Positions 11,901-53,534 of a DNA stretch of 64,000 nt are shown in pieces. The stretch spans positions 27,758,501-27,822,500 of the forward strand of contig NC_080577.1 of assembly GCF_029962835.1 (NCBI RefSeq). Direction: 5' to 3'. The notes beneath the pieces were generated by a model, which was not told the origin of the DNA, did not search any database, and saw only the letters and a program-made list of their open reading frames with translations. This stretch comes from Magnolia sinica (lineage: Eukaryota; Streptophyta; Magnoliopsida; Magnoliales; Magnoliaceae). The stretch's first letter is position 1. Every line of letters begins with the position of its first letter. Made by a program: the position numbers and the translations under genes.

Positions 11901-14900
11901 TAACATGAGCACTCAGATTCCCGTCATTCTTGGTCGCCCATTCCTTGCCACGTCAAATGCAATTATCAATTGTAGGAATGGTATCATGACTGTCTTTTGG
12001 AAATTTGACATTGGAGTCAAACATTTTTTTCAATAACGGCAGCAACTCAGAGGATGATGACGATTTCCACGACATTAACATGATTGACTCTTTCGTGGAA
12101 GATACGACACCTCTGACCTTATCCTCCGACCATCTAGAGACGTGCCTGGCCCACTCCCATGATTTTGATGATGACATGATTAGGGAGACGTGCACCTTGT
12201 TGGATACTGCACCGGTACTTGAAGTTAACCGATGGAGGCCACAATTTGAAGAATTACCACAAACTGATGTAGTGCCTCTACCGTCTAACCTCAAGCCGCC
12301 GAAGCTTGACCTAAAACCGTTGCCCTCTGATTTGAAATATGCATATTTGGGTCAAGATGAGACATACCCGGTGGTGATCTCTGCCCACCTGGAGAAAGAA
12401 CAGGAGAGTATGCTTATATCTACTCTCATTGAGCATAAAGGAGCCACTAGGATGGACGATAGCGGACCTCAAAGGAATCGATCCCTCGATTTGTACTCAC
12501 CACATATATCTTGAGGATAATGCAAAAACCGCTGCAACCACAACGTAGACTAAATCCAAATATGAAGGAAGTGGTTAAAGCCGAGGTTCTTAAACTATTG
12601 GACGTGGGTATTATATACCCTATATCCGATAGTCAATGGGTGAGTCCAACTCAAGTGGTTCCTAAGAAGTCCGGAATCACCATCGTAGCCAATGCTAATA
12701 ATGAACTCGTGCAACTAGAGTCACTACCGGTTGGAGAATGTGCATTGACTACGGGAAGTTAAATACCGTCACGAGGAAAGACCACTTTCCTTTACCATTC
12801 ATCGATCGAGATCCTGGAAAGGTTAGTGGTCATTCCTATTCGATTTTCTTGACGGGTATTCGGGCTATAACCAGATAGAGATAGCCCCTGAAGACCAGGA
12901 AAAGACCACATTTACATGTCCCTATGGCACCTTTGCCTATCGAAGGATGCCATTCGGACTATGTAATGCCCCTGCCACCTTTCAGCGATGTATGCTTAGT
13001 ATCTTTTCTGACATGGTGGGGCAATATCTAGAGGTCTTCATGGACGATTTCTCTGTTTACGGTCCATCTTTCAGCAAGTGCTTGGAAAGTCTTAAATGTG
13101 TGCTGAAAAGATGTGAAGAAAAGAACCTGGTACTTAATTGGGAGAAGTGCCATTTCATGGTTCAGAAGGGAATTGTCCTTGGGCATATCATCTCGGCCAA
13201 AGGAATCGAGGTAGATAAGGCAAAAATCGATCTTATCTCTAACCTACCTCCACCCAAGAACATCAGAGACGTGCGATCCTTCTTAGGACACGCAGGGTTT
13301 TACAGGCGATTCATAAAGGACTTTAGTCTCCTCTCTCGTCCATTATGTAATCTTCTTCAAAAGGATGTTCCGTACGAGTGGATCGAGCAATGCCAGAAGC
13401 TTTCACCAAGCTTAAAGGCACATTAACCATCGCACCTATCATGCGCCACCCGACCGGAACCTTCCTTTTGAGCTTATGTGCGACGCTTCGGATTATGCTC
13501 TTGGGGCGGTCTTGCCAGAGAAAATACAACAAGCCCTACGTCATTCACTACGCAAGTAGAACTCTAAATCCTGCCAAGTGAACTACTCGACTACGGAAAA
13601 GGAACTCTTAGCCGTAGTGTTCGCTGTGGATTTAGGTCCTACTGATCGGATCCAAGATCATTATATATACAGATCATGGCAATCAAGTATCTTCTTTCTA
13701 AGAATGATTCTAAGCCCCGCTTGATAAGATGGATCCTTCTACTCCAAGAATTTGATTTGGAAATTAAAGATTAAAAGGGAGTAGAGAACGTAGTGGCCGA
13801 TCACCTTTCTCGCCTTAATACCTCGATTCCCTTGAGACAACCCATATCAATGACATGTTCCCTGAGGAACAATTGTTTAGAGTCTCCCATTCACCTTGGT
13901 TCGCTAATATTGCTAATTTTCTTATCACAGGTTCTATACTAACACATTGGACTGCGCAAGATAAGAAGAAATTCTTTACCAAGGTGTGCAACTTTTTTTG
14001 GGACGATCCATATTTATTTAAATACTGCCCAGATTAAATCTTAAGGAGATGTATGCCAGACGATGAGCATTAGAGTGTCATCTCCTTCTGTCACTCGCAG
14101 GCCTGTGGTGGTCACTTTTTCGCTAAAAAGACCACGGCCAAGATTCTCCAGTGTGGCTTTTACTGGCCCACTATGTTCGGGGACACTCATGAGTTTTGCA
14201 AAGCTTGTGAGCGTTGTCGAAATTGGGAGCATTGTCCGTCGAAATATGATGCCTTTGAATCCCATCCTTATCATTGAAGCATTTGATTCTTTGGGGCATC
14301 GATTTCATGGGACCATTCCCCCAATCGCTTTGGAAATCAGTATATTGTGCTCGCCGTGGATTATGTCACTAAATGGGTTGAAGCGATTCCGGGTCGACAG
14401 TATGACCATCGCTCGGTCGTTAAATTCCTGAAAGAGAACATCCTTTCTCGATTCCGCCTCGAGCCATCATTAGTGATGGGGGCTCACATTTTTGTAATAG
14501 ACCATTCGAGAGCTTAATGAAGAAATACGGTATCTCTCATAAGGTGAGCACCCCATACCATCCACAGACAAGTGGACAAGCTGAGATTTCCAATAGGGAG
14601 ATTAAACACATTTTGGAAAAAACGGTTAACCCAGATCGTAAGGATTGGTCAATCCGATTGACCGATGCCTTATGGGCATACCGTACTGCCTTTAAAACCC
14701 CTATTGGAATGTCTCCCTTTAGACTTGTCTATGGGAAAGCTTGTCACTTGCCTGTGGAGTTGGAACATAAAGCGTACTGGGCGATCAAAAATCTTAATTT
14801 CAATCTGGACAACGCTGGCTCGCTACGCAAACTTCAATTGAATGAACTTGAAGAAATCCGGAATGATGCATACGATAATTCGAGAATTTACAAGGACAAG

Positions 14901-17900
14901 ATGAAAGCATTTCATGACCAACACATTTCGCGAAAATCATTCACGCCTGGTCAGAAGGTCCTTTTGTACAATTCTCGATTACATCTCTTTCCGGGTAAGC
15001 TTCGATCTCGTTGGACCGGTCCTTATATTGTTGTCACTGTTTTTCCGCATGGGGCCGTTGAGATAAGAGATCCCGACAATGGCAAGGAGTTTAAAGTCAA
15101 TGGACATCGATTGAAACCATTTGTCGAGAAATTTGATTCAGAGGACATGTCCATGCCTCTGGCTGATCCTGTTTACCAGGATTAATCTCCTAGTCTGATG
15201 GAGGTATAGGTAAGTTTCCTGTTTTCTTAGGACTAGGGTAGTTGCTTTCTTTGTCTGGCTAAAGACGGTAAACTTAGCGCTCCTGGGAGGCAACCCAGTT
15301 CTTCATTTCATGTCATTTTTTTTCATTAGTCAGTTCAATGTTTGTGGGTAACATTACTGCAAACCCTCACGAGACTACAACTCGTCCACTAGGGGTAACC
15401 TAGGGGTTTAAAGGCTTGTTGCATGCGCTAAATGCAATCGAGAGCACCTGCGAAAGTGGTATAGGTAGGATTTTATTTTTGTTAGTTCTGTGTCACTTTA
15501 TCTCTCGTGCTGACCGGATTCCATGCTGCGATCTCTTGGAAAGTCTCTCACGATTCATCATCCAGGTACTATCTTCCCTTCACTCTTTCTTTACTTTTGT
15601 TGTCCTATGCGCATTCCATACTCATATCCTTTACATTGAGGACAATGTAGCTTTTAAGTTGGGGGTGGGAGATTAGGTTACCTAATCAGTATTTTCTTGA
15701 GCAAAAATTGTGAAAATTTTTAAATTTTTTCTGGACTTTCTGGTGAATTCAAAGTGATTGGATGACCATCTTTGATTTAGAATTACAGGATATGGAATGT
15801 TGGTGATTTACTGCTCTTGGATTCAGTTGCTCGTTAGATTTCACAGTTAAGTTTAATTATTAATCCATGATTAGAAGTTGTAAACATTGATTGAGTCATG
15901 ATTTCACATGTCACATCTCGCTTACACATTAAGATTTCAGTTTGAAACTGATGGGTTAATTTGGTGATCAGTAAGCATAGAAGGAACCAACTTGAACAAT
16001 TGCCCGTCAAGATCAATTAAAAGGAAGAGATACCGTTGAAAAAGGTTAGGCAAAGAATCTTCACTATAGGTTTGCTCCCTATAAGTGTGGATTTCATTCC
16101 CCTTCTTGGTTTTTAGTCTAAAAACAAAAAAAACAAAAAAAAAAACAAAAAAACTGAAGGAATGAAAAGATGATCTTTGAGGCAAGCTTTGGTTATTATG
16201 AATTCTCTTGTTGATTACCAACGATATCCTGAAATAAAGAATTGAATATTAATGTTGAAAGTTGGGATTACACTTTACATCTGTGGAACTCAATGTTTAG
16301 GATTATTTCTAATTAAGGGACTAATACTTTGAATGAAGTTTATCGTGTGTTTGAGTCTAGGAGAGAGTAAGGCCCAACATTCATGAATTGTTGAATTCTG
16401 AATATCTAGATTGTTTTCCAAAATCACTCGAGTTCATAGAAATTCTCCTGTAATTCTCAACTTATTTTTCGCATACTTTGCTCGGGACTAGCAATAAAGT
16501 GCAGCATCTTTGAGAAATGATCTACCACCACAAACACTGAATCCATGACGCGCTGTGTTCGTAGAAGACCAAGCACAAAGTCCATAGATAAATTCTCCCA
16601 AGGGTCATCAAGTATAGGTAACGAGGTGTAGAAGCTCCTATTCTGATACTACCCCTTGGAGGTCTGACAAACATGACAATGTTGCACTGCTTTATCCACT
16701 TCGCATACCAATTGCGGCCAGTAACACCACTCCTCCACAAAAGCCAGTGTCTTGCCTCGCCCAAGGTATCCACCAAGGCCACATCCATGTAGCTCTTGAA
16801 TAATATGTTCCCTCAGAGAACTTTGGGAGATGCACAATCGATTCCCTTTGAAGAGGAAACCGTCTTGCATATGTAGGTGACTGGGATGACCCTCTTGGCA
16901 CCTTATCCATGCATCCTTGAAGTCCTCGTCCTTGGCATACAGCTCCTTGAGACAATCAAAGCCAACCACCTCATTGCTCACTATAACAAGTAGTCGTGAT
17001 CCACGGCGACTAAGTGCATCACCCACCTTGTTTTGCTACCCTAACTTGTGCTTCAAAACGAATGTGAATTCCTGCAAAAACGCAACCCATCTAGCATGCA
17101 CACGATTCACGTTAGCCTAACTATTAATAAACTTTAAGCCTTGATGATCAATGTAGAGAACAAACTCTCTCTGTATCAAATAATGCCGCTAATGTCGCAG
17201 CGCTTGAACAACTGCATATAGCTTGAGCTCATATGTCAATCACTTCTTTCGGGCTTCGTTGAGCTTCTCGTTGTAGAAGACTACCGACCCACCTTACTGT
17301 GATAAAACTCCTCCAATTCCAACATATGAGGCACCACACTCAAGACCGCTGTTGTGGACAATTGATGCTTGATTTCAGCAAAGCTCTTATCAGCCTCATT
17401 GATCCACTAAAACGGCCCATTTTCATGCAATTTATAATAGGTGCGACTATCGCGCTGAAAATCCACACGAATTGACAATAGAATGTCACCAACCGATGAA
17501 AACTCCTCACTTCATGAATGTTCTTCCGGATCGGCCATTCCCTAATAGCTCGCACATTTTCATCATCCACATGGATGCCTATAGATGTCACAACAAATCT
17601 TAAAAACAACAGGTTGTCTATTAAAAAGGTGCACTTGTTCAAGTTGAGGTACAACTTGTTAACCTGCAAAACCTGTAGCACCTGCCTAAGATGTTCCATG
17701 TGCTCCGTCTCATCTTGGCTATATATCAGGATGTCATCAAAATATACTACCACAAACCAGCCAATGAACAGCTTCAGCGCACTTTATTCATTAGACGTAT
17801 AAAAGTGCTTGGTGCATTCGATAGACCAAAGGGCATGACTAGCCACTCAAACAACCCTTCTTTGGTCTTGAATGTCGTTTTCCACTCATCACCGAGCCGG

Positions 17901-20900
17901 ATACAAATCTGATGATACCCGCTTCTCATATCTAGATTAGAGAACTCCTTAGCACCTTCTAGCATATCAAGCATGTCGTCTAACCGCGGTATTAGAAACC
18001 GATATTTGATCGTAATCTTGTTAATTACTCGGCTGTCAACACACATACGCCAGCTCCCATCTTTCTTAGGCATTAACAACGTCAGCACGGCACATGGGCT
18101 CATGCTCTCTCTCAAAAGACCCTTACAAATCAACTCCCCCACCTACCCCTGAAGTATCTCACTCCTTCGGACTCATCCGATAATGAGGGCGGTTAGACAA
18201 GCTAGCCCCAAAGACGAGGTCTATGTGATGTTGGATATCCCGCATGTGGGGCAATCCATTAGATAACTCTTCGGGCCAAATTTAATTGAATTCGTTTAGC
18301 AACAGCTTTAAACTTGGAGGAATGTTTAAGGGCTCTAATTCCTCTCCCTTTACGACTACAATGTACACCTCGCCGATTTCCTTGGATTCCACCATGAAAT
18401 CCGAATGGTCAGGAGGGAACTCCCCTCCACTTTAGAAGCTTCAGGGTGGTTCTCTAGTGTCATAGGGGCAAGGAACATCTTTCGACCATCCTTGACGAAG
18501 AAATAAACATTGTCTCATCCTTGGTGGGTCGCATCATAGTCCGACTGTCATGGTTGACCAAGTAACATATGGGATATGGCATGCTTCCATGTCAAGCATG
18601 TCACAAAATACTTGATCATTATAATTTTTACCAATTGAAAACGAGACAGTACATTATTCGATTACCTTGGTCTCGTTCACCTTTTTTATCTAGCTAATCG
18701 AGTAAGGGGAATGATGCTTTGTCATAGGTAGTCAGAACTTGTCCACCATCACTTTCGAGACGATGTGCTCGTTACGGCCATTGGTTATGATTACATCACA
18801 AACATTGCCACTAACGGTACACCAGTACGGTATATATTGTGCCGGTGTGGATGCAACTCCTTCCGTGGGGTGTACAATAATCGTCTTACGACCAAGGATT
18901 CGCCATGATCCTCGGTCAACCATTCTTCGTCAGCAGATCCTTCCTCAGTTGTTTTTTCATCTTCATCAAATCCAAGGCCTTCTTCCACTGCATCACCTTC
19001 AGTGCCCCCTTCGTTAATGGTCAAATGGGTTGCGTGGCGTTGAGGGCAAGTGTTTGATAAATGGTCCGGTTGGCCATAGCAGTAACAAGTGTTCGGCCTT
19101 TGCCAACCATAAGGATTTGTAATCCTACTCAGACCTGCTGTTGTGGGTGCTATACGTTGAGGCCAAGATGAGCCGCTCCTCGTGTCAAGATTTGTGGTTA
19201 CAGGAAGTTAAGGACATCCTCCTACTGGTTCTTTTCCTCGTGCCAGCACTGAATCTTGTGTTGGACCCGTCATAGGAGCCGAGTTGAAGGATAAGGCTGA
19301 GTAAGAACTATTGCAAGCTACATTTCCACCCTACTTGCCAACTGAACTGCTTCATCCATGGTCCCGACCGGGTACATCTGAACTCGGTCCTGAATCGTCA
19401 ATCATAACCCACCTATAAACCGTGCTACCTTTTGCGATTTGGTTTCTAACAGGTCATTCCGCGTTGCCAACCGCTGGAATTCTTCGATACAATATGTGAC
19501 GATTCAACTTCCCTATCTACAATTTTGGTATTGTTGGAAAAATACATGCTCGTAATCACCAAGGATGAATCGTGATCGAAGAAGGCGTCTCATCCATGGC
19601 CATGATCGGATGGGCACCTTGTTCTGTAGGGCACGTGAGAGTTATAATTGCTCCCACCATGCAAAAGCACCAGATTTTAATTTGAATGCTACTAATTTTA
19701 CCTTTTTATGTTTTGGCGGGTCCATGTAATCAAAATATTATTTTACTTCAACTAACCAGTCGAGGAAATCTTCTATACGCAATAAGCCATTAAAACCGGA
19801 AAGTTCGGCTTTACCTCGATAGTCTCTTTCAACAAGATCTAGTCGATGATCGCCTCCATGGACTGATCGTCGAGCAAAGCCGCCACCAATGTCCTTGTCG
19901 TTGGAGCTCGACCCATCTAGGGTAGTCCTATGATTCACCTCCAGAAGTGCCCTACGGAAATCAAGTTTGTGTTGTACAGCAACCACGAGCGATTGAGCAT
20001 CGCCTTGGGCTCGGGGCAGAATTAACGTATCTGCAAGATGATCGAGTGTTGCCTGCAGCCTTTGCATGGTCAATTGATTCTCCCAGTGAAAAGCTTGCAT
20101 TCTTTCCAAAAGATAACGAATCCCTGAATCACCGTCCACGGGATTTTGGTCCATACTGTCATTATTTTCCATTGGCCCGAGGGAAGTCCTCGCTCTAATA
20201 CCAATGGACGCAGGGATGGACATGATGAGGTCGATCACCGTCTTCCTCAAGGATAACTGCTTCGAATCCATGGAGCTTCTCTATAATCCTCACAGATATT
20301 CCTCGAATCCACGAGGAAAAAATAGAAATAATAGAAATAAATTCGAAAATAAATTGATTGATGATAAAAACGAATTTACAATCCTTTAAATAGTGATATC
20401 TAACCTAGGAAGAAGTTTCAGAATCAAACTCTAACTCAAACTCCCTAAAAAAAAATGTGACTTACCATAACTAGTAAACTTAGTATTTATAGACGGTCAT
20501 GATTTCTACTAGACTTCATGGTTTTCGGCTAAAAATAGTAAGTGTCTAATTTGGCTTAACCACATTATTCTCCTAATTTTTCTAAGCCCTTTTCATGTTG
20601 GGCACGACTCATAAAGCTCAAAGGATCAAGAGTTATGATCAAACTAAAATTTACTATAAATAGTAAAACCAAAATTAAAATGGACCTTCGACCATCGATC
20701 TGATGGAATCTTGCAAATCCGACATGGGCAACCCGGCGTAGCAGGGTTGGTTGGCTAAAGTAGCTTCTCATACCCCAAAATCATATATGGTACGTCGAAT
20801 AACTCATTCCAATTTGCGAGATACGCTTCCTTTAGTGTTTGGACGGTCCTAATCACTTCCGCCTCCAATCGGGCCTTCTTTGGTCTACCTTGGCCATGAA

Positions 20901-34969: not shown

Positions 34970-36997
34970 GTTGAGTCGGACAGACTGCAGAGGCTCATAC
35001 GAAGATCAATTAAAACGTCTGCCTCAACCGGGATGTGTGCAAGCTTGCCTTAGATAAATCTAAGCCTCACATCTCATATCCTAAAACACCAGGTATATAA
35101 ACCCTTAAAACAAACTAGAACATTATAGGGTTTTAAAGTTGAGAAAACTTTTTCAAAATCAGAAAATTCTCTAAGTTTTCTTGCTTTGTCGATTTTATCG
35201 GTACACTTCTCGATAGAATTGACTTGTGCTGTTGATGTCCTTGATACTTAAACGATATCATCGAAATGAAGACAAAATACGTCCATCAATCGTATATATC
35301 TCTGGACGGATTTATCAATGTATCGATATACCTATCGATATCATCGATATTTGAATCTCGAGTCCATCGATGGTGACTCGATAATATCGACAGACAAATC
35401 TACGGCGCCCCTGCTTTTACTTAAGAAAATCACATGTGCATTGATATATCGAAGTCGTTCTCGATACCATTGAAGTTCAAATCTTGATGATATCGGAAGG
35501 CTCTCAATGTTATCAGTCATGGGCGCCTAAGTTCTCCAGCAATTATTTCAGGATTGTTTATCTGCGATCAAGAGGCACTCAAGAGAATCGATATTTAAAT
35601 ATCGATGATATCAGTACGGTTTTGATGGCATCGAACAGGGACAGAAACTGTCCAGCAAGCTTAAACGAAAATCCTTTGGATTTATCGATGCATCGACACT
35701 CTATCAATATCATCAACATTCAAATTCCGATGATCTCGAAGATCTCTCGATCATTCTTGTAAACCTAAAATATTTCATAGCAAGTCTTTCTCATTTTCAA
35801 ATATCGATGAATCGAACCTCTCTTTGATGATATCGGAGTTCGAAATCCGATGACATCGATACGTGTTTTGATTCTCTCAACCAGCTGGCAAAAGGTTTCA
35901 AAAAGCGTATGACATTTGAGTTTGTGTCATCGAGTGGCCAGTTAATGCAATCGAGAGTATACGCTCGATGATATCGACCCCGCTCGATGATATCGAACTC
36001 TGTTATAAATGTGACCGTTTTATATCCGTTGGAACCTTTTGCCTATATAAAGAGAACTTGTCTATTGTTGCTGGTAGAGAAAGAAGAGAGTGCTTTTGAA
36101 TGTTTTACCTTAGATCATATACCCAAAGCCCTTTCTCTCAAGGGAGTTTATCCTCCAATCCACCCTCATCATTGATATTCAATAGAGTGGATTGGGGAAT
36201 GAACTTCCACATTCAAGGATCCTCCAGCTACTACCTTAATGGCAAATCATTAAGTTGGGATGCCTTGAATGCATAGATGATTGAAATCGCTCTATTTTCC
36301 TAATAGGAAAACATTTCGAAAGTAGGATTCCATCATAACCTTGACCCAACCCGTTGTCATATATTAGTATATCATTTGAGTTATGGATCAAGGAAGCAGA
36401 AGACTCTTTATCAATAAAGGATGTGATCTTCATTAACGAGTTGAATGAGACTCATCCACTTATCTATAATTAACTAGAGTTCAGAGGACCCTTTGATCAT
36501 TCCTCTGTAGGATTGAGTCTAAGGTGTTTCTCACCCTTGCAAGCCCTCATAGGAGGCCTCCGGCAGGAGTGTATGTGGTGAGTGCGTTGTATGGACCCTT
36601 GCTCTGTAGAGAGCATAAACATCTGATTGAAGGTAAACTTGTCTAGAACCTTAGGTTAGAGGTGAACAGTGTGAAACTTCAGTTAGGGTCTTATGAAAGA
36701 TCCTTAGCCAATGTGCCTAAAAGTGGGTGCGTTTTGTTGACCATTGCTCGTGAGAGCATAAACAGTTAGCCTCAGTGTAGCTTGTAAAGGTTGAAGGTGA
36801 ATCTGATTTAAAACCTTAGGTTTGAGGTGAACTGTTGTGAAACCTCCTTAGTGAAATCCGGTACACTCAAGGGTTAAGTGTGGTTACCGGGAGTGGAGTA
36901 GACAAGTAGTCGAATCACTATAAAAATGACTGTGTTTGAGATTGTTATTCTGTTGATTATGTAATTTACTCTAATATTTTCATATCTGAGATCACAC
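34970..36997 (+). repeat. Copia-like LTR, left part (split by a CACTA element)
   Basis: A TATATAAA box at 36044-36051 is followed by a leader and a region reading GGTGTTTCTCACCCTTGCAAG, GGTGAACAGTGTGAAACTTC and GAATCACTATAAAAATGACT. This architecture is usual in large copia LTRs. It resumes after the CACTA element at 43,314 and ends near 43,522. Upstream of the TATA box, about 35,180-36,000 is packed with ATCGAT/GATATCGA words. The left edge is uncertain. Confidence 0.55.
36044..36051 (+). promoter_or_regulatory. TATA box of the copia-like LTR
   Basis: TATATAAA in GCCTATATAAAGAGAAC, followed by a short leader. It sits between a putative U3 rich in ATCGAT motifs and R/U5. Confidence 0.5.
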
Positions 36998-37019
36998 CTC
37001 CAATACAAAAAAACAGGGT

Positions 37020-37205
37020 AACGCCGACGGCTAGAAGCCATCGGCAATATAAAAACCGTCGGACGGTCCGTCGGGAAATGGGCTTGGCGTTGCTCGCCGA
37101 CGGATTTTAGCCGTCGGCTTCTACGACGGTTAAACCGTTCCGACGGCTGACGAGGACGGCGAAAACCGTCGGCATTATCGACGGTGAATAGCCGTCGGCA
37201 TTTGT
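37020..37205. repeat. CACTA left subterminal repeat array
   Basis: Many direct and inverted copies of CCGTCGGC / GCCGACGG in under 200 bp. In CACTA elements such arrays bind the element's DNA-binding transposase product. Confidence 0.85.
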
Positions 37206-37718
37206 CATAAATATATATAAAAAAATTTGTAATAATAATTAATTACCTAATCAACGCACATATCCGAAACTAGATATACCGATTTCTCCAAGGCCCTAAA
37301 CCAACCAACCAACCAACCTATTTGAGAAGGCAAGTCTACAAAAAAGAAAATGAAGAAATCAATGGTGTTTATGTTGATCGACTGTTTCATTGATGATTCC
37401 ATTCTAGCTGGTATATTCCATTCAATGAACACCAAGAATACAAGGGAAAAAAAAATTCAAAATGTTAGCTAAATTTGAGTATGGGGTTTTTAAATAACAT
37501 GATTTGGTTAATTGTTTGCTGAATTAGCTAATACATATGAACATTTGAAATTGCGGCAGTTATTGGCCACCTTTAAAAGAAAATAATTAGAAATAGTATT
37601 GTCTAGTATCGAAACCACGTCTCCTAGTATTGAAACCAGTACGTATCACACAAAATGTACCGTTTTTTGAGAATATTTTTAACTTTGGATACCAATGAGG
37701 AGAATAGAAGATATTTAC

Positions 37719-37832
37719 CTTGTTGCAAGACATGCAACTAGCCTATCTGCATCCTTGACTGTATCATCCATCACACTACTCTCAGGATCAGTCAGTGGTC
37801 AGCTCATGACAAACAACTTTCATGCCTTGAGA
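37719..37832 (-). pseudogene. MOR1/XMAP215-like exon fragment (captured)
   Basis: Acceptor GTGCAG, donor GTAAAT. Reads SQGMKVVCHELTTD, then a stop; after a frameshift it continues PESSVMDDTVKDADRLVACL. These match the C-terminal part of the plant microtubule-associated protein MOR1/GEM1. A small deletion near 37,783-37,795 breaks the frame, so it cannot encode the native segment. Confidence 0.8.
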
Positions 37833-37996
37833 CTGCACAAAATAAAAATAGGAAGAAATTGTGTTCAAATTCTTCACATGAACAATTAACAGAACACTTG
37901 AGAGGCCTAGCTAATATAATTCTTTTCTCATGCAACAAAAGATGAATATTGGAAAGAAAAAAGAAGAATATAAAATGACTAAATCAAGTATACAAC

Positions 37997-38043
37997 CTGC
38001 TCAGGAGAACCCAAGGAAATAACATCCAAAGCTTCAGTCCAGT
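37997..38043 (-). pseudogene. MOR1-like exon fragment (captured)
   Basis: Acceptor CCGCAG, donor GTTGTA. Reads (D)WTEALDVISLGSPEQ, the exon preceding SVxGMKVVCHEL in MOR1. In phase with both neighbours. Confidence 0.75.
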
Positions 38044-38457
38044 CTGCGGAGCCATTTGCATCAAAAAAGAACATTAAAAAATAAATCCATATCATGAAAG
38101 CAAGCATACTTAAAAAAAACTAAATTTCTTCAAAACATAGAGGTTGTTTCTTTTAGTTACCGTGATTTCCAAAGATACGTGGAATGGTCAATGGTCAAAA
38201 AGCGAAATTTATCTCTCAGAAAGTGTGGAAATGCAAATTATTAAGTTCTTTGAGGAAAAGGAAAATTCTTCTATTTAAAGAAGAAGAAGACTATGAAAGG
38301 AAGACAGTTTTCCACATGCTACTTCATCATTGAGGAAGGCCCTAAAAAATTTGAGCTCAAAACCCTTGCACACCTCGAGTGCACCTACTGCCTTTAACTG
38401 CACTAATGATGGGCATAATTTACTAAATCAAAGAAAATATAAAGCCAAAAGGCTCAC

Positions 38458-38499
38458 CATTAGCAGGAACGCGTACTTTCTTCTTTTTCTTCTTCTTCC
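38458..38499 (-). pseudogene. Captured exon, lysine-rich (source unknown)
   Basis: Acceptor TATACAG, donor GTGAGC. Reads (G)KKKKKKKVRVPAN. In phase with the next and previous exon blocks. Basic, possibly nuclear-localising. Source gene not recognised. Confidence 0.5.
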
Positions 38500-38723
38500 C
38501 TGTATAGAAAAACAGAAAATGGAATACCATTAGAAGACCCTTAGTATTCTCATTACAATCTCATTTTGTAAGTTGTCATTCAGGCCAAAGAAACCAATGT
38601 GGATACAAAGTGAGTCACAACCAAAAGAATGTGTGTGCACGTGTAAATATCATTTCTAAGAACAGAAAAGGAAAAAATAAATAAAATTGTTAATATTATT
38701 TACAAAGCTTACAACTCATTCAC

Positions 38724-38873
38724 CTGGATCACTACCAGGCAGGTTCTGCTGAACATTCTCCTTTCTATTATGAGTATGATCTTCACAATGATCAGGCATA
38801 GTTTCCTCTTTGGCAGTGGCAGAAAGTGTAGGGGATGGAGCTTTAGGCAGAGGACACCGAGCAGACTCCATAT
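38724..38873 (-). pseudogene. Captured exon, hydrophilic (source unknown)
   Basis: Acceptor CTTTAG, donor GTGAAT. 49 whole codons without a stop: MESARCPLPKAPSPTLSATA to QQNLPGSDP. In phase on both sides. Composition is that of a disordered linker. Confidence 0.5.
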
Positions 38874-38960
38874 CTAAAGAAAGCAGGTTAGATCACTCCA
38901 CTGATATGAAATGTTTGATTTCAATACACTAAACGAGATTGTCATCACCAGCTTACAAAC

Positions 38961-39034
38961 CTTGCACATGTAATACACTTCCAGCATTTTCTGCACCACT
39001 GGTAGTTGACTCCAGGATGCAGTTGATAGTTTCC
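38961..39034 (-). pseudogene. Captured exon (source unknown)
   Basis: Acceptor GCATAG, donor GTTTGT. Reads ETINCILESTTSGAENAGSV then LHVQ. In phase with neighbours. Confidence 0.5.
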
Positions 39035-39121
39035 CTATGCGTCTTATTCGGTTACAAGTAATCTGCAAGTATATTTGTAGCTCCACATACACAGACTCTG
39101 AAATTATGTGGTCTTGGATAC

Positions 39122-39206
39122 CTGATTATATGCAAGACAACAGGGACAGCAAGCTTCTCAACAGGTACAACAGCCATCACAGCTTCAAGCATTGGAACAA
39201 TCATGC
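39122..39206 (-). pseudogene. Captured exon, helical repeat-like (source unknown)
   Basis: Acceptor GTTGCAG, donor GTATCC. Reads MIVPMLEAVMAVVPVEKLAV then PVVLHII, an amphipathic pattern like a HEAT or armadillo helix pair. In phase with neighbours. Confidence 0.5.
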
Positions 39207-39614
39207 CTGCAACACAAGAAAGAAGCATGTAAAGAAAGAAAAAAAAAAAAAACAGAATGAGTATCTGGTTAGGCATGCTAAGATCTTAGTTATCATGCAT
39301 TCAATCTCAGTCAACAAAGCATTTCTGGACCTTCCATTGTTGGGCCCTATGACATAATGGGCCACAGCCCAAAAATCACACTGGTTGGGTGATCCAAGCC
39401 ACTGATTGGATGCTTCTGAGAATTACACCTCCAGCCAAATATTGTCAACAGTAGATAGGAATTATGTCCCTTGATCAGCGGCTAGGAACATCTGATTTTT
39501 GGAGTATGGCACATTCAAGGCAGGGACAACAGATGAACAGTCCAGATCTCATACAAGGTTTCATCAAAATCCCATTGCATGTCATGATGTTCTAAAACTA
39601 TGGAAGAGAATTAC

Positions 39615-39697
39615 CAAAGCCACGTCCCGCCATCATCCTGCCACCCATCCCACCCCTTCCAAAACCTCTTCCAGGGACAAATGATTCCTGATTTTGC
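39615..39697 (-). pseudogene. Captured exon, Gly/Arg/Met-rich
   Basis: Acceptor TTTTGCAG, donor GTAATT. Reads QNQESFVPGRGFGRGGMGGR then MMAGRGF, an RGG-like box typical of RNA-binding proteins. It joins the next exon in phase. Source gene not identified. Confidence 0.5.
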
Positions 39698-39899
39698 CTG
39701 CAAAAGACCAATCTAAACCAATCAGAGAACAATACAGAAATCATAACCCAAAATCATATTAGAGCATCAATGAAAGGGAGATGTCTCACCGTGGCCAAGA
39801 GGATTATAAAAGAAATAAAGGCCATGGTCAAGCTCATTCCATCATAGCAGTAATTACACCATGAAGACAGAACAGTACCAGTTCCTTCATAATCATTAC

Positions 39900-40007
39900 C
39901 TGCATCTGTAGTAAGATATTCAGTGTTTCATGAACTACTGAAGGATGCATGTACTTAAGTGTGGCACCTAGTGCTTGAGCACAAGTTTCCCAAACAGGGG
40001 CAACAAC
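39900..40007 (-). pseudogene. BTAF1/MOT1-like exon fragment (captured)
   Basis: Acceptor GATCAG, donor GTAATG. 36 codons: [20 protein letters not shown] then [16 protein letters not shown]. This matches the HEAT-repeat part of the TATA-binding-protein-associated ATPase BTAF1/MOT1, where [14 protein letters not shown] is strongly conserved. Arg is Trp here. It ends in phase 0, which does not fit the next exon block. Confidence 0.8.
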
Positions 40008-40223
40008 CTGATCAGAAACATAATCACCAAAACTGCATCAACAGATCAAGGAAAAGATGTACTAAATGAAAATCACTCAACAAAAAGAAGAAGAGCAAGA
40101 ACATAGACAAATGCAAGAGCACTTTAATAAGAATGAATCAAAGCAGGGAAAAAATAAACATTTGAAAAGCTCCACTCAAAACCATGAAAGTAGCATTAAT
40201 TATGGTTCTTTCCTTTATATTTT

Positions 40224-40227
<4 letters not shown>

Positions 40228-40264
<37 letters not shown>
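40228..40264. repeat. (GA)n microsatellite
   Basis: About 18 GA units inside the CACTA element. Confidence 0.95.
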
Positions 40265-40265
<1 letters not shown>

Positions 40266-40645
40266 ATTAGTGACATGCAATGGGATTTCAATCGAGAACT
40301 GCAAGTTAAGGTTTTGGGTATAGGAAAATTAAGCCAATGACATGCTAAAACAAGCTCATCACTAAATTCACTTAATATGGTACCCTTTTTTTTCTTTCTT
40401 TCTTTTCAATTTAGCAATATTGAAGTTTGGAGAAGTTGTTAGATGACAATAGTGATCAAGGTTATTAAGAAAGACAATGGGAGCTAGCCTGTCTCATACT
40501 ATTTTACATGCATTCTCGTTGTTGCCTAGGCATCATATCCACTTGGAAAACACAAATAATAATAATATAATTCCAGAACTTATTGTATATCATATCATTT
40601 GGATGCAAACTCTAACCGAATAATTATCTGTAAAGATAAACAAAC

Positions 40646-40767
40646 CTATGAATTCCCCTTTTTCTAGGGAAAGCAGTGGACAGAAGGAAGCATGGATACC
40701 GTGCACCTGAGGAGCTACTTTGAGCGAACAACGGAGGGTCAAATAACCCTGTATCTCCAATGCAACG
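40646..40767 (-). pseudogene. WDR13-like exon fragment, distal (captured)
   Basis: Acceptor CCTGTAG, donor GTTTGT. Reads VALEIQGYLTLRCSLKVAPQ then VHGIHASFCPLLSLEKGEFI, matching the WD40 protein WDR13 family. The next WD repeats are absent. Confidence 0.8.
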
Positions 40768-40799
40768 CTACAGGAATTGACATTACAGCATTACAACAT

Positions 40800-40929
40800 T
40801 AGCCAAAAAAGAAAAGGTACGGTATTGCATAGTTGTGATTGGAGACTTGCGCTTACTACTGCTTCGATTGCGGTGCATCCTGGATAGTGCTCTTGTGCAG
40901 GAGTTCATATTGACAGTGTATATGCATCC
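40800..40929 (-). pseudogene. WDR13-like exon fragment, middle (captured)
   Basis: Acceptor TTTACAG. Reads GCIYTVNMNSCTRALSRMHR then NRSSSKRKSPITTMQYRTF, as in plant WDR13 homologues. The usual continuation (LARGPVLLTC...) is missing, so an internal deletion removed the exon end and the donor is unclear. Confidence 0.75.
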
Positions 40930-41015
40930 CTGTAAATTCCACTCATGTTACTACAAATGCTTAGATGTGATTTCTCAAACTAATAGAGTGCATAAATGAA
41001 TGAATAAGCACACAC

Positions 41016-41120
41016 CTGGGCATCAAAAATAAGCTGACCAGCATGATCATTGTCCATGGCAGTGATCTCATGCTCAAAGAGAGCTTTGTTAATGAAGCAA
41101 CCAGTGCTAAAATTGATCAC
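41016..41120 (-). pseudogene. WDR13-like exon fragment, proximal (captured)
   Basis: Acceptor CTCCAG, donor GTGTGT. 35 open codons: VINFSTGCFINKALFEHEIT then AMDNDHAGQLIFDAQ, continuing in phase into the 40,929 exon. Matches the WDR13 region around the first WD repeats. Confidence 0.75.
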
Positions 41121-43041
41121 CTGGAGTCAAATATGTTTTTCAAAAACATGGGCAAAGGAGGCAATCAGAACTCAATGATGTAACGAAAATACACTACCTT
41201 AATCTCTCACAATAAATGCATGCAGTTTTCATTGTTTCTGTCAAGTCCTGGATGAAAAGTTTAACTGACACACAACAATATAGAAAAAAGCAGCAAATTT
41301 ACAACCAAATTCCTGAATCAAGAGCGAGAGAACAATGCCAATGATCTTCGATTTACCTGTGTCAAAAGAACAATCTTGCAACCATTCTCGAATCATCACC
41401 ATCTCTAAGGTTGTTCCTGGGCCAGTTTCTATCTACACATTCAATCTATGTATGGTAGCCTTAGAAATCTGTTCTAAGTCTTCACAAGAATATTATGCTC
41501 GATTTGAGCAGTCTTTGAGCTACGAAAGGTGTGTGGAGGTCTGTGGTGGTAAGAATTCCCTGAACGGTATTAGCAGGGTTCTCTTAGTGGCAGAATTCTT
41601 TCGTTTGTATGGCAATGCATTCATTAAGGCACTGTCCGATCTCGGCATGAAGATGGTTTCTCTAATTTATAAGGATTTTTCTTTTATTAAAATTATAGGT
41701 GCAGTGACTGAAAGAAAGGCATAAGCTACTGACATCAGCCCAAACCATGGCTAAGGCTTCAACTTGTGCCAGGCTCAACCAAATCCCACTTGCCTAACCT
41801 GATTCTTCCAAGGTGGGGATATTTAATTCTCTATCAATGCCCTCAGTCAACTTGAGTTGGGTTAGTTGGTCTGGGATCGGGGTCCCAGCACATGCCAACC
41901 TAACCCAGTTTTCAATCTTAATCAGTGAGCTATGGAATCGAGATTTGGATAGGCCCAGTAACCAAATACATAGCCCACATTAGTTAAATAAGGCCATTGA
42001 GGCCATCCCCAATCAACTATTTTGCCTGGAACTCAGGCACAAATGCAGAGACCACATGGGGCCTAGGCAATGCAAACCCAAAACATTGAAAATGCAAAGC
42101 CTGCATGTGGGGCTGGCATCGGTTCAATATATGGGCCAGCCAACTTGAATTGAAGGTTTCCCAGTAATTATCGGTTAGGCGTCATGGGATTTGGACTAAA
42201 GCGATGGGATTCATCCAATACAGCATTGTGAGGGCCCACATTATTATTACAGGAACCGGACGCCGATTTCCTGCTAAAGACTCTCACAGGAAGTTCCTGC
42301 TCAGGGATGGTGGGTGGGTCCCACGTTGGAGTTTGTGAGAAATCCACACGTCCCGACAGGCCTTTGGCAAGCCCGATCCTCTGATCTATGCTTTCATCAA
42401 CCCAAGCATTCAAGCTGATCCACGCAGCATGAGGCTTATACTGATCTATGCTTTCATCAACCCAAACCCAAACGTTTGTGTGCTTACAACATCACAAGAA
42501 GAAAAGAGAAAAAGCAATGACAGATGGAAGGAATTCTGGAATAAAAACAGCAAGAAGAGGAACAGTCGGCGAGGAAAATAGGGGATTTCGAGAGAAGCTC
42601 ACCTATTTGAGATGAATCTTCAAGGATTCAGATCTCTGGCGAGGAAGATTGCGCCGTTCGAAAGAGGGAAGAGCTCTCGCAAGGAAGATCGCCCGTTCGA
42701 AAGAGGAAGAGTCGTGCGTTTGGAAATCCCTCATCCGAAATGAGGGGATAATTTCAAATCCGTTAATTGTGCGTTTACCATCATTTATAATATAGACATT
42801 ATTACCAACCGTACACGTAATGGACAATTTACTGGATGGTTACGATAGTTTTATATAATAAAGTATATAAATATTTACTATCTACGACTAGACCCATTAT
42901 TTGGTTGGTCTGGATAACCCTATATCATTACCACCACTATTGATATAAACAAGTCACCACATTTTTACGGAAAATGAAAAACTCACACACATTTACAGTT
43001 ATAAAAAACGCTACCTTGTCATAGGATCTGTTAGGGCTCTA
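41121..43041. other. Right half of the CACTA element, no identified gene
   Basis: A 24-bp unit CTGATCTATGCTTTCATCAA(CCCA) is repeated at about 42,381 and 42,441. Near 42,630-42,710 a GGAAGAT-GTTCGAAAGAGG unit is duplicated; this may be captured 5' leader or promoter sequence for the minus-strand exons. An open plus frame at 41335-41724 has no recognised homology. Confidence 0.4.
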
Positions 43042-43200
43042 TGGGACCCCACCATGATGTTTTTACTTCATCCACACCGTAAATCCATTTCTAAATATTC
43101 TTTTAAGAATGTTGAAAAAAAATGAGTTCTAAATAAATCTAGGTTGAACAACACCACAGGCTTAAAGTAGCGTTTGGACATCCACCATAAAAAAATGCTC
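43042..43200. repeat. Long-TIR MITE, copy H (left part)
   Basis: TGGGACCCCACCATGATGTTTT and the following CTTCATCCACACCGTAAATCC match the family's left arm. It lies inside the CACTA element just before its right subterminal repeats. Confidence 0.5.
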
Positions 43201-43313
43201 CTTAGCCATGAAGTTTAAAGCTTTAGCTACGGATTTTAGCCGTCGGAATTTCCGATGGATTCTCCAAAACCACTTCAAGCCCGTCGACTTTGCCCCATTT
43301 TTTGATAGTGCTC

Positions 43314-43522
43314 ACACACATACACAATCATATCCATCATAAATTAGTCTGCATATTGTTCATTTCTTAAATAGTTTGTGATTGGATCCTCTACTGGGAT
43401 TTGAAGCCATAAAGTTACTTTTAAGTAATCCTGATAAGTACAGTCTGTTAGGATTAGTGTAATAGGATTTTTAAATAATTCATAAAAACTTTAAAAAGTC
43501 CTATTCACCCCCCTCTAGGACA
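43314..43522 (+). repeat. Copia-like LTR, right part after the CACTA insertion
   Basis: Continues the LTR interrupted at 36,997. Ends with AAAAAGTCCTATTCACCCCCCTCTAGGACA, the closing phrase of many copia LTRs. No primer site follows clearly. Confidence 0.5.
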
Positions 43523-43908
43523 TATTAGCATATTCCTACTTTAACTAAAGCGGTCCTCACCGTAATTTCACAATCCACAAGTATGAGAATATATTCAAGA
43601 GCAACATGTAAGTATTTATACAAGATAAATGTTGAGCATACAAGTTGAGGATCAATTCTAATAACTAGCACAAGTAATTATGAAACAAAGATATCAATTA
43701 TCAACTGAAATTAGAATAGGAACTATCACTTAAGCTAATATGAAAGCAAAAAGCCCAAGGGGAAGAAGTCATTACTTTACGAGTCAATTCACCAACTAAT
43801 GTCGTTAGGAAGTGCGCACACCCTTATCGTCGAATCCTACCACGAATTATGAAATTGTATGGTTAGATCTAAGTTTTACACACTATTTTTTGTTAAGGTT
43901 CTAACCTA
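43523..43908. other. Unassigned AT-rich sequence
   Basis: No coding frame or repeat edge recognised. Possibly the interior of the copia-like element. Confidence 0.4.
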
Positions 43909-44750
43909 GGGTTTGGATTACTTAGGTTTAGGATTTCATCCTAGATTTTAGGCTTAGGCTTAGATTTTAAGATTTGAACTCTAGTTGGTGCATGATTAAT
44001 AACAATGTTAACTTAATAATTACAAAATAATTATTGACATTAATGATATAATTAATGTTGATGTAGAAATCTGGTCGATCCCGCCTCACCTCCTGTTGGC
44101 CGGAGTATCTGCAATTTATTGAAAAACAAGAGAAGACATTGGGAGTGCCAATTAAGGCCGAGGACCTTCTGATGCCTAAGTCAGAATCGAGATATTTGTT
44201 ATATGTACCTTTACTCATGACAGCAGGTGTATTGATAGGATTTTGGGGGAGGTGGCGCATATGACAATGCCTCTCTATGATAGATGTGTGTTGTGGAAGG
44301 GATCTTCTTCCGAATGCATTGTGGTTATCTCTCTGAGATCCACGTCAAAGATCTTGGAAAGATCTTCTTCAAATAAGATCTTCGAGTAGTTGAGATCCGA
44401 GAAGGTCTGGGTAGATGGTTGAGGCCGACCTCTAGGACGGCTGGGTCGAGATCTTCCAGACCAAACTAAACTGTCAGCTGTGGTCAAGAATGGTGCAGAC
44501 CGGGCTAAAGTGTTGATAATGATCGAGGCTCTTCTTTGAGGCCGAGGTTTGTATTCGAGGCCAAAGTTGGCACCTGAGGTCAAAGTCGGCATCTGAGGTC
44601 AAAGTTGGTAACCAAGGTCGAGATCGATATCCGAGGTCGACCTCCAAGGTTGGTAACTAAGGCTGAGGTCGAAGTAATCCATAGTCATCAAATTTGGCTG
44701 CTCAGCTCATCTGTCTCATATATCTAGTCAGTTCATTTTTACCCATAATG
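43909..44750 (-). repeat. 3' LTR of the gag-only element
   Basis: Shares GTTTGGATTACTTAG, TTTGAACTCTAGTTGGTGCA and CTGGTCGATCCCGCCTCACC with the right LTR. Contains degenerate GAGGTCGAAGTTGG-type tandem units at about 44,540-44,670. Confidence 0.75.
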
Positions 44751-46290: not shown

Positions 46291-46673
46291 TAGGCTTGAC
46301 AGATATCGCCGATTTGACCATGCAGTTCCTTAAATTCTACCTTCCAAGGGCCCTCGTTCTTGGCTACCGCCTCGGGAGCCTTTCTACGCTTCTTCTTCTC
46401 CAATGTGTGATGCAAGTCGGAGTTGGTGAGCATGGTAGTTCTCGAAGTGTGGGAGGGCACATGGCTCGACTGTCCAGGATGTTGTTTGGTTCTCTGGAAG
46501 TCGATCGGTGCTTAAGGTGGTGCAGAGACCTCGGTGGTTGCTTGTGCATCTATCCCTTGGTCGGGATGTGGGTTTTGTTTCTCTAAGATCTGCATTATCC
46601 GATTAATATTACCAGTCAAGGCTTCAACTTGAAGTTTCAGAGAGATGAGTTGACCTTCCCGATTAGTGACCTC

Positions 46674-47538
46674 TGGTTTGGATTACTTAGATTTAGGATT
46701 TCATCCTAGAGTTTATGTGTAGGCTTAAATTTTAGGATTTGAACTCTAGTTGGTGCACAATTAATTACAATGTTAATTTAATAATTATAAAATAATTATT
46801 AACATTAATGATATAATTAGTGTTGATGCTTAAATCTGGTCGATCTTGCCTCACCTCCTATTAGCTAAAGTACCTGTAATTTATTGGAAAACAAGAGAAG
46901 ACATTGGGGTGTCGGTTAAGACCGAGGACCCTCCGATGCCTAAGTCAAGTAGTTTCGAAGGAGGGGTAGAATAATCGGAATATTTGTTTTGTGTACCTTT
47001 ACTCATAGCAACGGGTGTATTGACAGGATTTTTGGGGAGGTAGCGTATATAGCAATGCCTCTCTATGGTGGATGCGTATTGCGGAAGGAATCTTCTTCCG
47101 AATGTATTTTGGTTATCTCCCCGAGATCCACGGTGAAAATCTCAGGAAGATCTTTTTAAGATAAGATCTCCGAGTAGTCGGGATCTGAGGAGGTCTGGGT
47201 AGATGGCTGAGGCCGACCTCTAGGACGGCTGGGTTGAGATCTTACAAACAGATCTGAATTGTCAGTCGTGGTCGAGAATGGTATAGACTGTGCTGAAGTG
47301 TTGATCATGATCGAGGCTCTTCTTTGAGGCCGAAGTCGGTATCTGAGGTCGAAGTTGGCACCCGAGGCCGAGGTCAGCATTCGAGGTCGAAGTTGGTAAC
47401 CAAGGACGAGGTCGATATCCGAGGTTGACCTCCCAGGTTGGTAACTGAGGCCGAGGTTGAAACAATCCATAGTCATTCAGTCTGGCTGCTCAACTCATCT
47501 GTCTCATACATCCGCTCAGTCCGTTTTTAACCATAACA
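46674..47538 (-). repeat. 5' LTR of the gag-only element
   Basis: 865 bp, matching the left LTR throughout, including the GAGGTCGAAG-type internal units at 47,330-47,462. Sequence inside its edge (GAGGTCACTAATC in minus sense) is not a recognised primer site. Confidence 0.75.
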
Positions 47539-52205: not shown

Positions 52206-53534
52206 TCCCAGGTTTGGTGTAAATGGCCCTAAGGGATGGGTTTTCACTATACTAGACCTATGAGAAGGTCTTTCTAGCCTCAAGGGCCCACTATGGGGTG
52301 TACAAGTCAATATACACCGCAAAATAGTTAGCCTTAATGATGATCTACGTATGGATACGATCGGCCCACCATTTGGATGTGCCGATCGACAGATATGATA
52401 AGAAGTCTATTCAACGGTCACCGTTAGTCGATCAGGGCCGCGGCTATACGGATATGAGCAAGAAAATATTCTTACTCCATGGGTAAAGTTTGCTCACAAA
52501 CCGACGGTCCGAAATCCTCAACTTTGCATAAGAATGGACGACTCAATTCACTTAAGTTTCAACTCATTCCTTTAGGGTATTTGCACTTCTCATGCACTCA
52601 TCCTTCAGCTCAAGTTGACCGGTTCTGGACCATACCCAGGTCCGATTCCCGCGATGGATGTCAAGCCCAATGGGATGGACATTATTCTATAGTTTTGGAA
52701 CCAGTGGTCCACCATCGAGCGGTCTAGAGCTTGTTTGGATAACCGGGGTAGTTCTGGTGGTCCTCTGACTATGAAACTTATAGGATAAGTGCTCCATGGC
52801 CCGATGAAGGGCCATGCAAAATTTGGGGATGATCAGACATGAGTTTGGTCGCACGGGTTTGATTCGCGGTCAACGGTCACCGTGCCACGATCGGGTCCTA
52901 GAGTTTGCGGACGGGCGTAGAAAAATACATTAGACCCTCATCGTAAATTATGAAGAAATCCGACGGCTGAAATGTCTTACATTTCAGTTTTTATTTACCC
53001 GTGCCAGATTCCAATTTTGGCATTGGTGGGGCGCATCTGGCAAATGCAAGATTACACTTCTGGGTGTCCACTGGGTCCGTGGTCCGCGATGGTTCCCAAG
53101 CCCAGTGAGATCTATGCTTCCCTCAATTTTTATAATTTTTTGACCTTCCCATGTCGCGGTATAGCCCGCACGGGCTGCTGCCAAGTGTAAATGGCCATTT
53201 GGCTTAACGGCCCGCACTTGGCCCAATCACAACCCGACTGGTCTACTCTAATGGGCTAATCCTAACTTAATTTAGTTATGGCACCAAACCATGAGTAGTT
53301 TAAACGAACGGTCCTGCAGCAAATCCTACGAGGACGCCTCAGTACACTGTTCTGGTTGGACGGGACGTTACCTGATTAACCGGACTTGTGCGGTTCTTCA
53401 CTGGTACACCCTGTATAAACTGACATTGAGTGCTAATGGTCATTACGTAATATTTAGGTTAATTAAATAAAATAAAAAAATAAAAATTGATGGATTTTTG
53501 AAAATCCAAAATAGTGAAAATCAAGGATGTTACA

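Follow-up and report, generated by a model that had tools for sequence, protein, structure and literature searches.

Structure and ends of the element

Within the 64-kb window (the whole stretch of Magnolia sinica DNA analyzed), positions 37001-43310 are occupied by an element whose degenerate CACTA-type ends face each other. Between these ends, five host genes are represented: WDR13-like, BTAF1/MOT1, PQT3-like/RBBP6 and MOR1-like pieces on the minus strand, and an NLR piece on the plus strand (Table 1). Direct reading confirmed both the span given by the original prediction and the 3-bp CTC duplication claimed to flank it. The predicted terminal CACTA-type repeats are also present and correctly oriented, but the left terminus reads CAATA, one mismatch away from CACTA. 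A 3-bp flank match by itself has a chance of 1 in 64.

Table 1. Features of the element and its target site, in window coordinates.
Feature	Position	Strand	Basis
Target-site duplication, left copy, 3-bp CTC	36998..37000	.	Direct reading
Left CACTA-type terminal repeat CAATACAAAAAAACAGGG, first pentamer degenerate	37001..37018	+	End-pair comparison
Left subterminal region, 8 CCGTCGG/CCGACGG motifs in both orientations	37023..37199	.	Motif count
MOR1-like fragment, exon pieces 38059-37997, 37832-37797 and 37792-37718	37718..38059	-	Protein search, alignment
PQT3-like/RBBP6 (DWNN E3 ubiquitin ligase) fragment, later exons, residues ~326-497	38456..39125	-	Protein search, alignment
Exon-like stretch GMIVPMLEAV...	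39121..39207	-	Clean acceptor; joined mid-exon to PQT3-like sequence
PQT3-like/RBBP6 Arg-Gly-rich exon, residues 175-202	39613..39696	-	Alignment
BTAF1/MOT1 exon, Magnolia sinica BTAF1 residues 543-586, 41/44 identical	39900..40031	-	Protein search, alignment
WDR13-like fragment, exons 41120-41016 and 40929-40647, residues 279-416	40647..41120	-	Protein search, alignment
Exon-like stretch IETGPGTTLEM...	41355..41432	-	AG and GT borders
NLR fragment (At4g27220-like disease-resistance protein)	41464..41664 (approximate)	+	Protein search, alignment
Right subterminal region, one exact CCGTCGG (43240) and degenerate relatives by eye	43229..43287	.	Motif count, inspection
Right CACTA-type terminal repeat CACTATCAAAAAATGGGGC, inward reading	43292..43310	-	End-pair comparison
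Target-site duplication, right copy, 3-bp CTC	43311..43313	.	Direct reading

We compared the two ends with all comparable pairs in the window, defined as CANTA/TANTG ends with at least one exact CACTA, 300-20,000 bp apart and with identical 3-bp flanks, taking the element's own end-to-end score for CAATACAAAAAAACAGGG and CACTATCAAAAAATGGGGC, 13, as the threshold. This score was reached by 1 of 145 pairs, the pair that bounds the element, and by none of 174 pairs in the reversed sequence used as a control; random 34-mer pairs reached it in 5 of 100,000 draws. Because this pair stands alone among the 145 and the reversed control gave none, a chance origin of the end pair is unlikely. The same counts weigh against a rival reading, in which the ends match by chance and the region is an unstructured graveyard of pseudogene fragments put together by double-strand-break repair or segmental shuffling, as does the packing of five unrelated genes into 3.9 kb (37718-41664) enclosed by precisely these two ends. 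In favor of a graveyard are the CAATA left end, the almost complete loss of subterminal motifs on the right, and the mid-exon junction of the PQT3 piece with unrelated sequence at ~39121; on balance we consider it very improbable. No uninterrupted (empty) CTC site was found in the window, BLAST searches with the two 3-kb flanks separately returned no match spanning the site, and no second copy of the element lies within the 64 kb.

Gene fragments within the element

Searches with joined-exon queries gave E-values of 2.7e-55 for WDR13, 2.0e-42 for the PQT3-like gene, 1.9e-17 for MOR1, 1.9e-14 for the NLR, and 5.4e-9 for BTAF1 (Magnolia row, 92% identity). These matches bear out the WDR13-, BTAF1/MOT1- and MOR1-like exon fragments of the original prediction. 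Its fourth gene, left unidentified there, is indeed present and proves to be PQT3-like/RBBP6, while the claim that all pieces lie on one strand fails at the plus-strand NLR piece (~41464-41664), which had been missed. That piece is identical to Magnolia sinica P0241 at 43 of 60 positions (residues 551-610). Of the minus-strand blocks aligned to Magnolia sinica proteins, 10 of 11 show 84-93% identity, and the eleventh, which bears a deletion, matches at 39 of 49 positions.

The best Magnolia sinica relatives of the pieces lie on five different contigs, of 141,926,363 (WDR13), 105,460,429 (PQT3), 77,824,990 (MOR1), 84,602,008 (BTAF1) and 88,541,654 bases (NLR), and the region therefore does not correspond to a single native locus there.

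Three of the pieces (WDR13, PQT3-like and MOR1) are damaged by stops, frameshifts or deletions, and no intact protein was seen from the element's exons. The WDR13-like fragment retains one intron and has a damaged stretch at ~40800-40770. The later PQT3-like exons comprise ~39120-38959 (with an in-frame stop), 38874-38722 (with ~54-55 codons missing) and 38500-38456. The MOR1-like fragment, which covers residues 1472-1531 of Magnolia sinica MOR1, carries a frameshift near 37796.

The pieces retain introns. The original prediction gave all exons splice borders; among the nine minus-strand exons, scoring GT and AG at the block end or at most 2 nt away, this is true of the GT (9/9) but of the AG in only 7/9, the AG being absent from the second of the PQT3-like exons and the first of the MOR1 exons. 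These mostly intact borders, the location of four of the five pieces on one strand, and the splicing of captured pieces as cassette exons in soybean Tgm-Express1 (PMC1947982) are consistent with an addition to the Pack-CACTA reading favored below, and one that does not compete with it: the pieces might have come to be spliced into a chimeric transcript, or might serve as a source of small RNAs acting on the parent genes. Given the stops, frameshifts or deletions borne by the WDR13, PQT3 and MOR1 pieces, we judge such recruitment highly unlikely.

Two further exon-like stretches (Table 1) gave nothing beyond short, weak matches among the 360 proteins compared, and neither matched any entry in the PDB. 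We considered the first of them (39207-39121) as degraded PQT3 and rejected this: in a frameshift alignment it scored 25, while shuffled sequences averaged 23.7 and 22.8 for the two query lengths, and 22/60 and 18/60 shuffles scored at least as high. As a positive control, the adjoining true PQT3 stretch scored 191 in a frameshift alignment. It is possible that 39121-39207 stems from a sixth source; the stretch at 41355-41432 may be of chance origin. A more far-reaching proposal, which we hold to be very doubtful, is that the element draws on at least six sources from at least five chromosomes (the sixth at the mid-exon junction at ~39121) and, by virtue of its mostly intact splice borders, would yield chimeric or small RNAs; in this early-diverging angiosperm they would simultaneously touch an immune receptor gene and genes of chromatin, ubiquitin and microtubule function.

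Domain content and subterminal motifs

The absence of a transposase, as originally predicted, agrees with our Pfam search, in which none of 86 ORFs (stop-to-stop, at least 40 aa) matched a transposase family at E 0.1, although a badly broken transposase could escape a scan with this length limit. The 86 ORFs yielded seven families with one member each, at E-values of 0.018-0.069, which we read as noise, and the seven joined peptides of the element gave zero Pfam matches. A PDB search with the joined exons returned just three weak rows (E 6.2), and an Rfam scan of the window gave no family at or above its gathering score.

The predicted subterminal arrays are dense on the left, with eight copies of CCGTCGG or CCGACGG at 37024-37198, but nearly lost on the right, where a single exact copy persists. 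An 18-nt subterminal word common to both ends had no match in the viral contigs searched and matched three bacterial genome contigs, which by our estimate does not exceed chance expectation. Among the matches listed by a literature search on this motif in CACTA subterminal regions, none was recognized as describing it.

The interior (37200-43238) is devoid of the subterminal motif, even allowing 1 mismatch in 8, and the restriction of the motif to the two ends speaks for the Pack-CACTA reading. A motif-free interior would also fit a rival scenario, in which a Helitron or Pack-MULE nested at a later time in an already decayed CACTA element and was the true collector of the gene pieces. Both kinds of element likewise carry multiple host gene fragments (PMC1947982), and an exact 18-nt inverted repeat (39567-39584/40271-40288) surrounds the PQT3 Arg-Gly-rich and BTAF1 exons. 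The gene pieces are of mixed orientation, however, and a pattern devised for this analysis, which variant ends would escape, detects no 3' end of Helitron type (a hairpin followed by CTRRT) on either strand of 36901-43400 (mean of 0.15 per shuffled strand). Nor were long internal terminal inverted repeats of the Pack-MULE type present among the longest 25 of 50 pairs. A nested collector is thus, in our assessment, quite improbable.

Origin of the element

We conclude that the element is very probably a non-autonomous CACTA transposon (Pack-CACTA), carrying genomic-DNA pieces that derive from five or more unrelated host genes and inserted with a CTC duplication. This is the best reading because the ends are accompanied by the duplication, the search for a transposase domain gave none, the relatives of the pieces lie on five contigs, and introns are kept; the original prediction of multi-gene capture with introns is supported on the same grounds. 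Counting against Pack-CACTA are the CAATA left end, the single exact motif at the right, and the lack of an empty site in the window. The two exon-like stretches without an assigned gene, one of them joined mid-exon to PQT3-like sequence, likewise count against it.

We infer that the host gene pieces were acquired at the DNA level in several steps; in the published model, capture would proceed via aberrant excision of neighboring CACTA copies. The element would then have been mobilized in trans by a transposase encoded elsewhere and inserted at its present site with the 3-bp CTC duplication, and decay presumably followed. Its mobility has probably been lost, since the left end is mutated and the right subterminal repeat nearly empty.

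Relation to known elements

The closest parallel is Tgm-Express1, a 5.7-kb CACTA element in the soybean wp allele that carries fragments of five unrelated host genes (PMC1947982). In both elements, exon and intron sequence from five unrelated genes is present, with GT-AG borders kept in Tgm-Express1, and the mix of genes in Magnolia, originally predicted to be unusual, is therefore not unusual for its kind. The two differ in that Tgm-Express1 carries other genes, lies within a gene intron and is transcribed (PMC1947982), whereas the Magnolia element has decayed ends. A study of Pack-CACTA and other Pack-TYPE elements deals with Arabidopsis, rice and maize, with a pipeline that discards singletons (PMC8903248); the element described here, in contrast, comes from a magnoliid. 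The target-site duplication of CACTA elements is given as 5 nt in PMC8903248 and as 3 bp in PMC8978399, and the 3-bp duplication in Magnolia agrees with the latter and differs from the former.

CACTA elements of Chenopodium share CACTA ends, subterminal repeats and captured host fragments with the Magnolia element, but those described bear transposase coding regions (PMC8978399), of which none was found here. Of the papers listed by a search on CACTA elements in Magnolia, the same source describes a CACTA transposase (Transposase_21) from Magnolia ashei, and elements of this class are therefore known in Magnoliaceae; its passage naming the genus Magnolia makes no mention of gene capture. A search for literature on Pack-TYPE elements in Liriodendron found no paper.

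The element is a well-described kind of genome litter and not a new system. What it contributes is a five-gene Pack-CACTA with clear boundaries from a magnoliid, an affiliation to which its best protein matches also point. It fits, without changing, the view that the capture of several genes by CACTA elements occurs widely among flowering plants.

Results

The left end of the element begins CAATACAAAAAAACAGGG and the right end, read inward, CACTATCAAAAAATGGGGC, and the predicted CTC duplication is present at both flanks (see table). The similarity of the two ends was matched in 5 of 100,000 draws of random 34-mer pairs from the window. We also compiled all end pairs in the window with a CANTA start and a TANTG end, 300–20,000 bp apart, whose 3-bp flanks agree and in which at least one end reads exactly CACTA: 37001/43310 is the sole pair of 145 to score at least 13, while the reversed sequence, used as a control, gave 174 pairs, none of which reached that score. 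The cut-off of 13 is the pair's own score, and the test measures how often other pairs equal it. CCGTCGG/CCGACGG occurs in 8 copies within 37024–37198 and in 1 copy at 43240, and elsewhere in the window only at 52501, 52960, 60091 and 61684; the 8-mer subterminal motif, with one mismatch allowed, is absent from 37200–43238. Taken together, the chance tests on 34-mers and end pairs and the motif distribution indicate that the two ends belong together. The original prediction of CACTA ends with subterminal arrays thus holds for the pairing and the left array, but the left terminal pentamer has mutated and little remains of the subterminal repeat on the right. As predicted, no transposase was found by Pfam searches of the 86 stop-to-stop ORFs (six frames, 40 aa or longer), which shorter transposase pieces could escape; seven weak matches (E 0.018–0.069) fell in one ORF apiece. 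A Helitron-like 3' end was not found in the element, in a test of little power.

Coordinates of the element and of the exon-like blocks within it
Feature	Position	Strand	Remarks
Element	37001-43310		6,310 bp; flanked by CTC on both sides; read directly
NLR fragment	41464-41664	+	43/60 residues identical to P0241; no stop
Exon-like stretch	41432-41355	-	three-frame reading
WDR13-like exons	41120-41016, 40929-40647	-	protein search, tblastn
BTAF1/MOT1 single exon	40031-39900	-	41/44 identical, Magnolia sinica BTAF1 residues 543-586
PQT3-like/RBBP6 exon	39696-39613	-	24/28 identical
Exon-like stretch	39207-39121	-	preceded by AG; joins PQT3-like sequence mid-coding-sequence
PQT3-like/RBBP6 exon	39096-38959	-	38/45 identical; in-frame stop
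PQT3-like/RBBP6 exon	38874-38722	-	39/49 identical as aligned
PQT3-like/RBBP6 exon	38500-38456	-	13/14 identical
MOR1-like piece	38059-37718	-	19/21, 10/11, 21/25 identical in three blocks

Exon-like blocks showed up in a three-frame reading of the minus strand and were identified by protein searches and tblastn, which recovered the expected WDR13-, BTAF1/MOT1- and MOR1-like pieces. The fourth gene, present but left unnamed in the prediction, is PQT3-like/RBBP6, its best match being the Magnolia sinica protein P0121 (E 2.0e-42; best 120 of 376 matches). The joined WDR13-like exons best match the Magnolia sinica protein P0001 (E 2.7e-55; best 120 of 366 matches), three blocks of the alignment having 32/35, 39/43 and 38/41 residues identical, and the MOR1-like piece best matches Magnolia sinica P0167 among the matches listed. 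The BTAF1 exon is too conserved to indicate lineage, because its Gossypium relative scores slightly better than that of Magnolia sinica (E 4.3e-9 versus 5.4e-9; best 120 of 174 matches). The NLR piece best matches Magnolia sinica P0241, "probable disease resistance protein At4g27220" (E 1.9e-14; best 120 of 174 matches), and lies on the plus strand; the claim that all pieces share one strand therefore fails, the other four being on the minus strand.

Splice borders, said to be retained throughout, were seen as GT at all nine ends of the minus-strand exons and as AG before seven of the nine starts (allowing an offset of up to 2 nt from the block end), the exceptions being the second PQT3-like and the first MOR1 exon. 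Introns are kept between exons of the same gene, as predicted, and this favours captured genomic DNA over an origin by reverse transcription. None of the pieces covers a gene from start to stop. In the second WDR13 exon, ∼17 residues have no good match and are replaced by 31 nt containing a stop; the PQT3-like piece has a stop and a deletion; and a frameshift separates the second and third MOR1 blocks. The deletion amounts to ∼54–55 codons, since 38874–38722 spans P0121 residue 383 to ∼420 and then jumps to VQQNLPGSDPG, ∼55 residues further in that protein. The BTAF1 and NLR pieces are free of stops and frameshifts, and both are short and internal to their proteins.

Nothing marks 39207–39121 as a decayed part of PQT3: its frameshift-tolerant alignment score was 25, reached by 22/60 and 18/60 shuffles at two query lengths; the adjoining true PQT3 stretch scores 191. 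This stretch may represent a sixth source of captured DNA.

Several repeats lie inside the element. An exact 18-nt inverted repeat (39567–39584/40271–40288, 686 bp apart) surrounds the PQT3 Arg-Gly-rich and BTAF1 exons, and may be a relic of the joining of the pieces. Between two PQT3-like exons, a MITE-like stretch of 160 bp (39356–39515) is bounded by imperfect 23-nt inverted ends (83%), and the right part contains an exact 25-nt direct repeat (42381–42405/42441–42465, 60 bp apart).

Elsewhere in the window, phytochelatin synthase exons occupy 4190–6461 on the minus strand (Pfam PF05023, E 6e-25 and 1.2e-19, two ORFs). What look like remnants of two retrotransposons lie at 11386–15182 (plus strand; matches to aspartyl protease and reverse transcriptase, and one below threshold to an integrase core) and 16652–18142 (minus strand; integrase zinc-binding and reverse transcriptase). 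To the right of the element, direct repeats at 43904–44748 and 46669–47536 (82% identity, 869 aligned bases) are perhaps long terminal repeats.

Discussion

Since the top matches of the WDR13, PQT3-like, MOR1 and NLR pieces all come from Magnolia sinica, the host plant is probably a magnoliid near Magnolia. In Magnolia sinica, taken here as a relative of the host, the five pieces do not form one native locus, because their counterparts there, among the matches listed and with other paralogues possible, sit on five different contigs: WDR13 on one of 141,926,363 bases, PQT3-like on one of 105,460,429, both MOR1 relatives on one of 77,824,990, BTAF1 on one of 84,602,008 and both NLR relatives on one of 88,541,654. 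A contiguous native gene was not seen among these matches. Most likely, a CACTA copy without a transposase acquired host DNA stepwise, was mobilised in trans, duplicated 3 bp at its site of insertion and then decayed. The pick-up of host DNA would be the inferred step; a model described for Arabidopsis has neighbouring copies, aberrant excision and complementary terminal deletions yielding a hybrid that contains chromosomal DNA (PMC13317346). Subterminal repeats and a duplication of 3 bp are described for CACTA elements, and a CACTA transposase is reported from Magnolia ashei (PMC8978399); a 5-nt duplication is stated for the element set in PMC8903248, at odds with the 3 bp.

The gene mix had been thought unusual. 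Tgm-Express1 of soybean, as described in PMC1947982, is a 5.7 kb CACTA element. It carries exon and intron fragments from five unrelated host genes, and chimeric transcripts make use of the captured splice borders. The element described here resembles it in size, in number of source genes and in keeping introns. It most likely belongs to an already known kind, the multi-gene CACTA elements, among which its mix of genes is not unusual.
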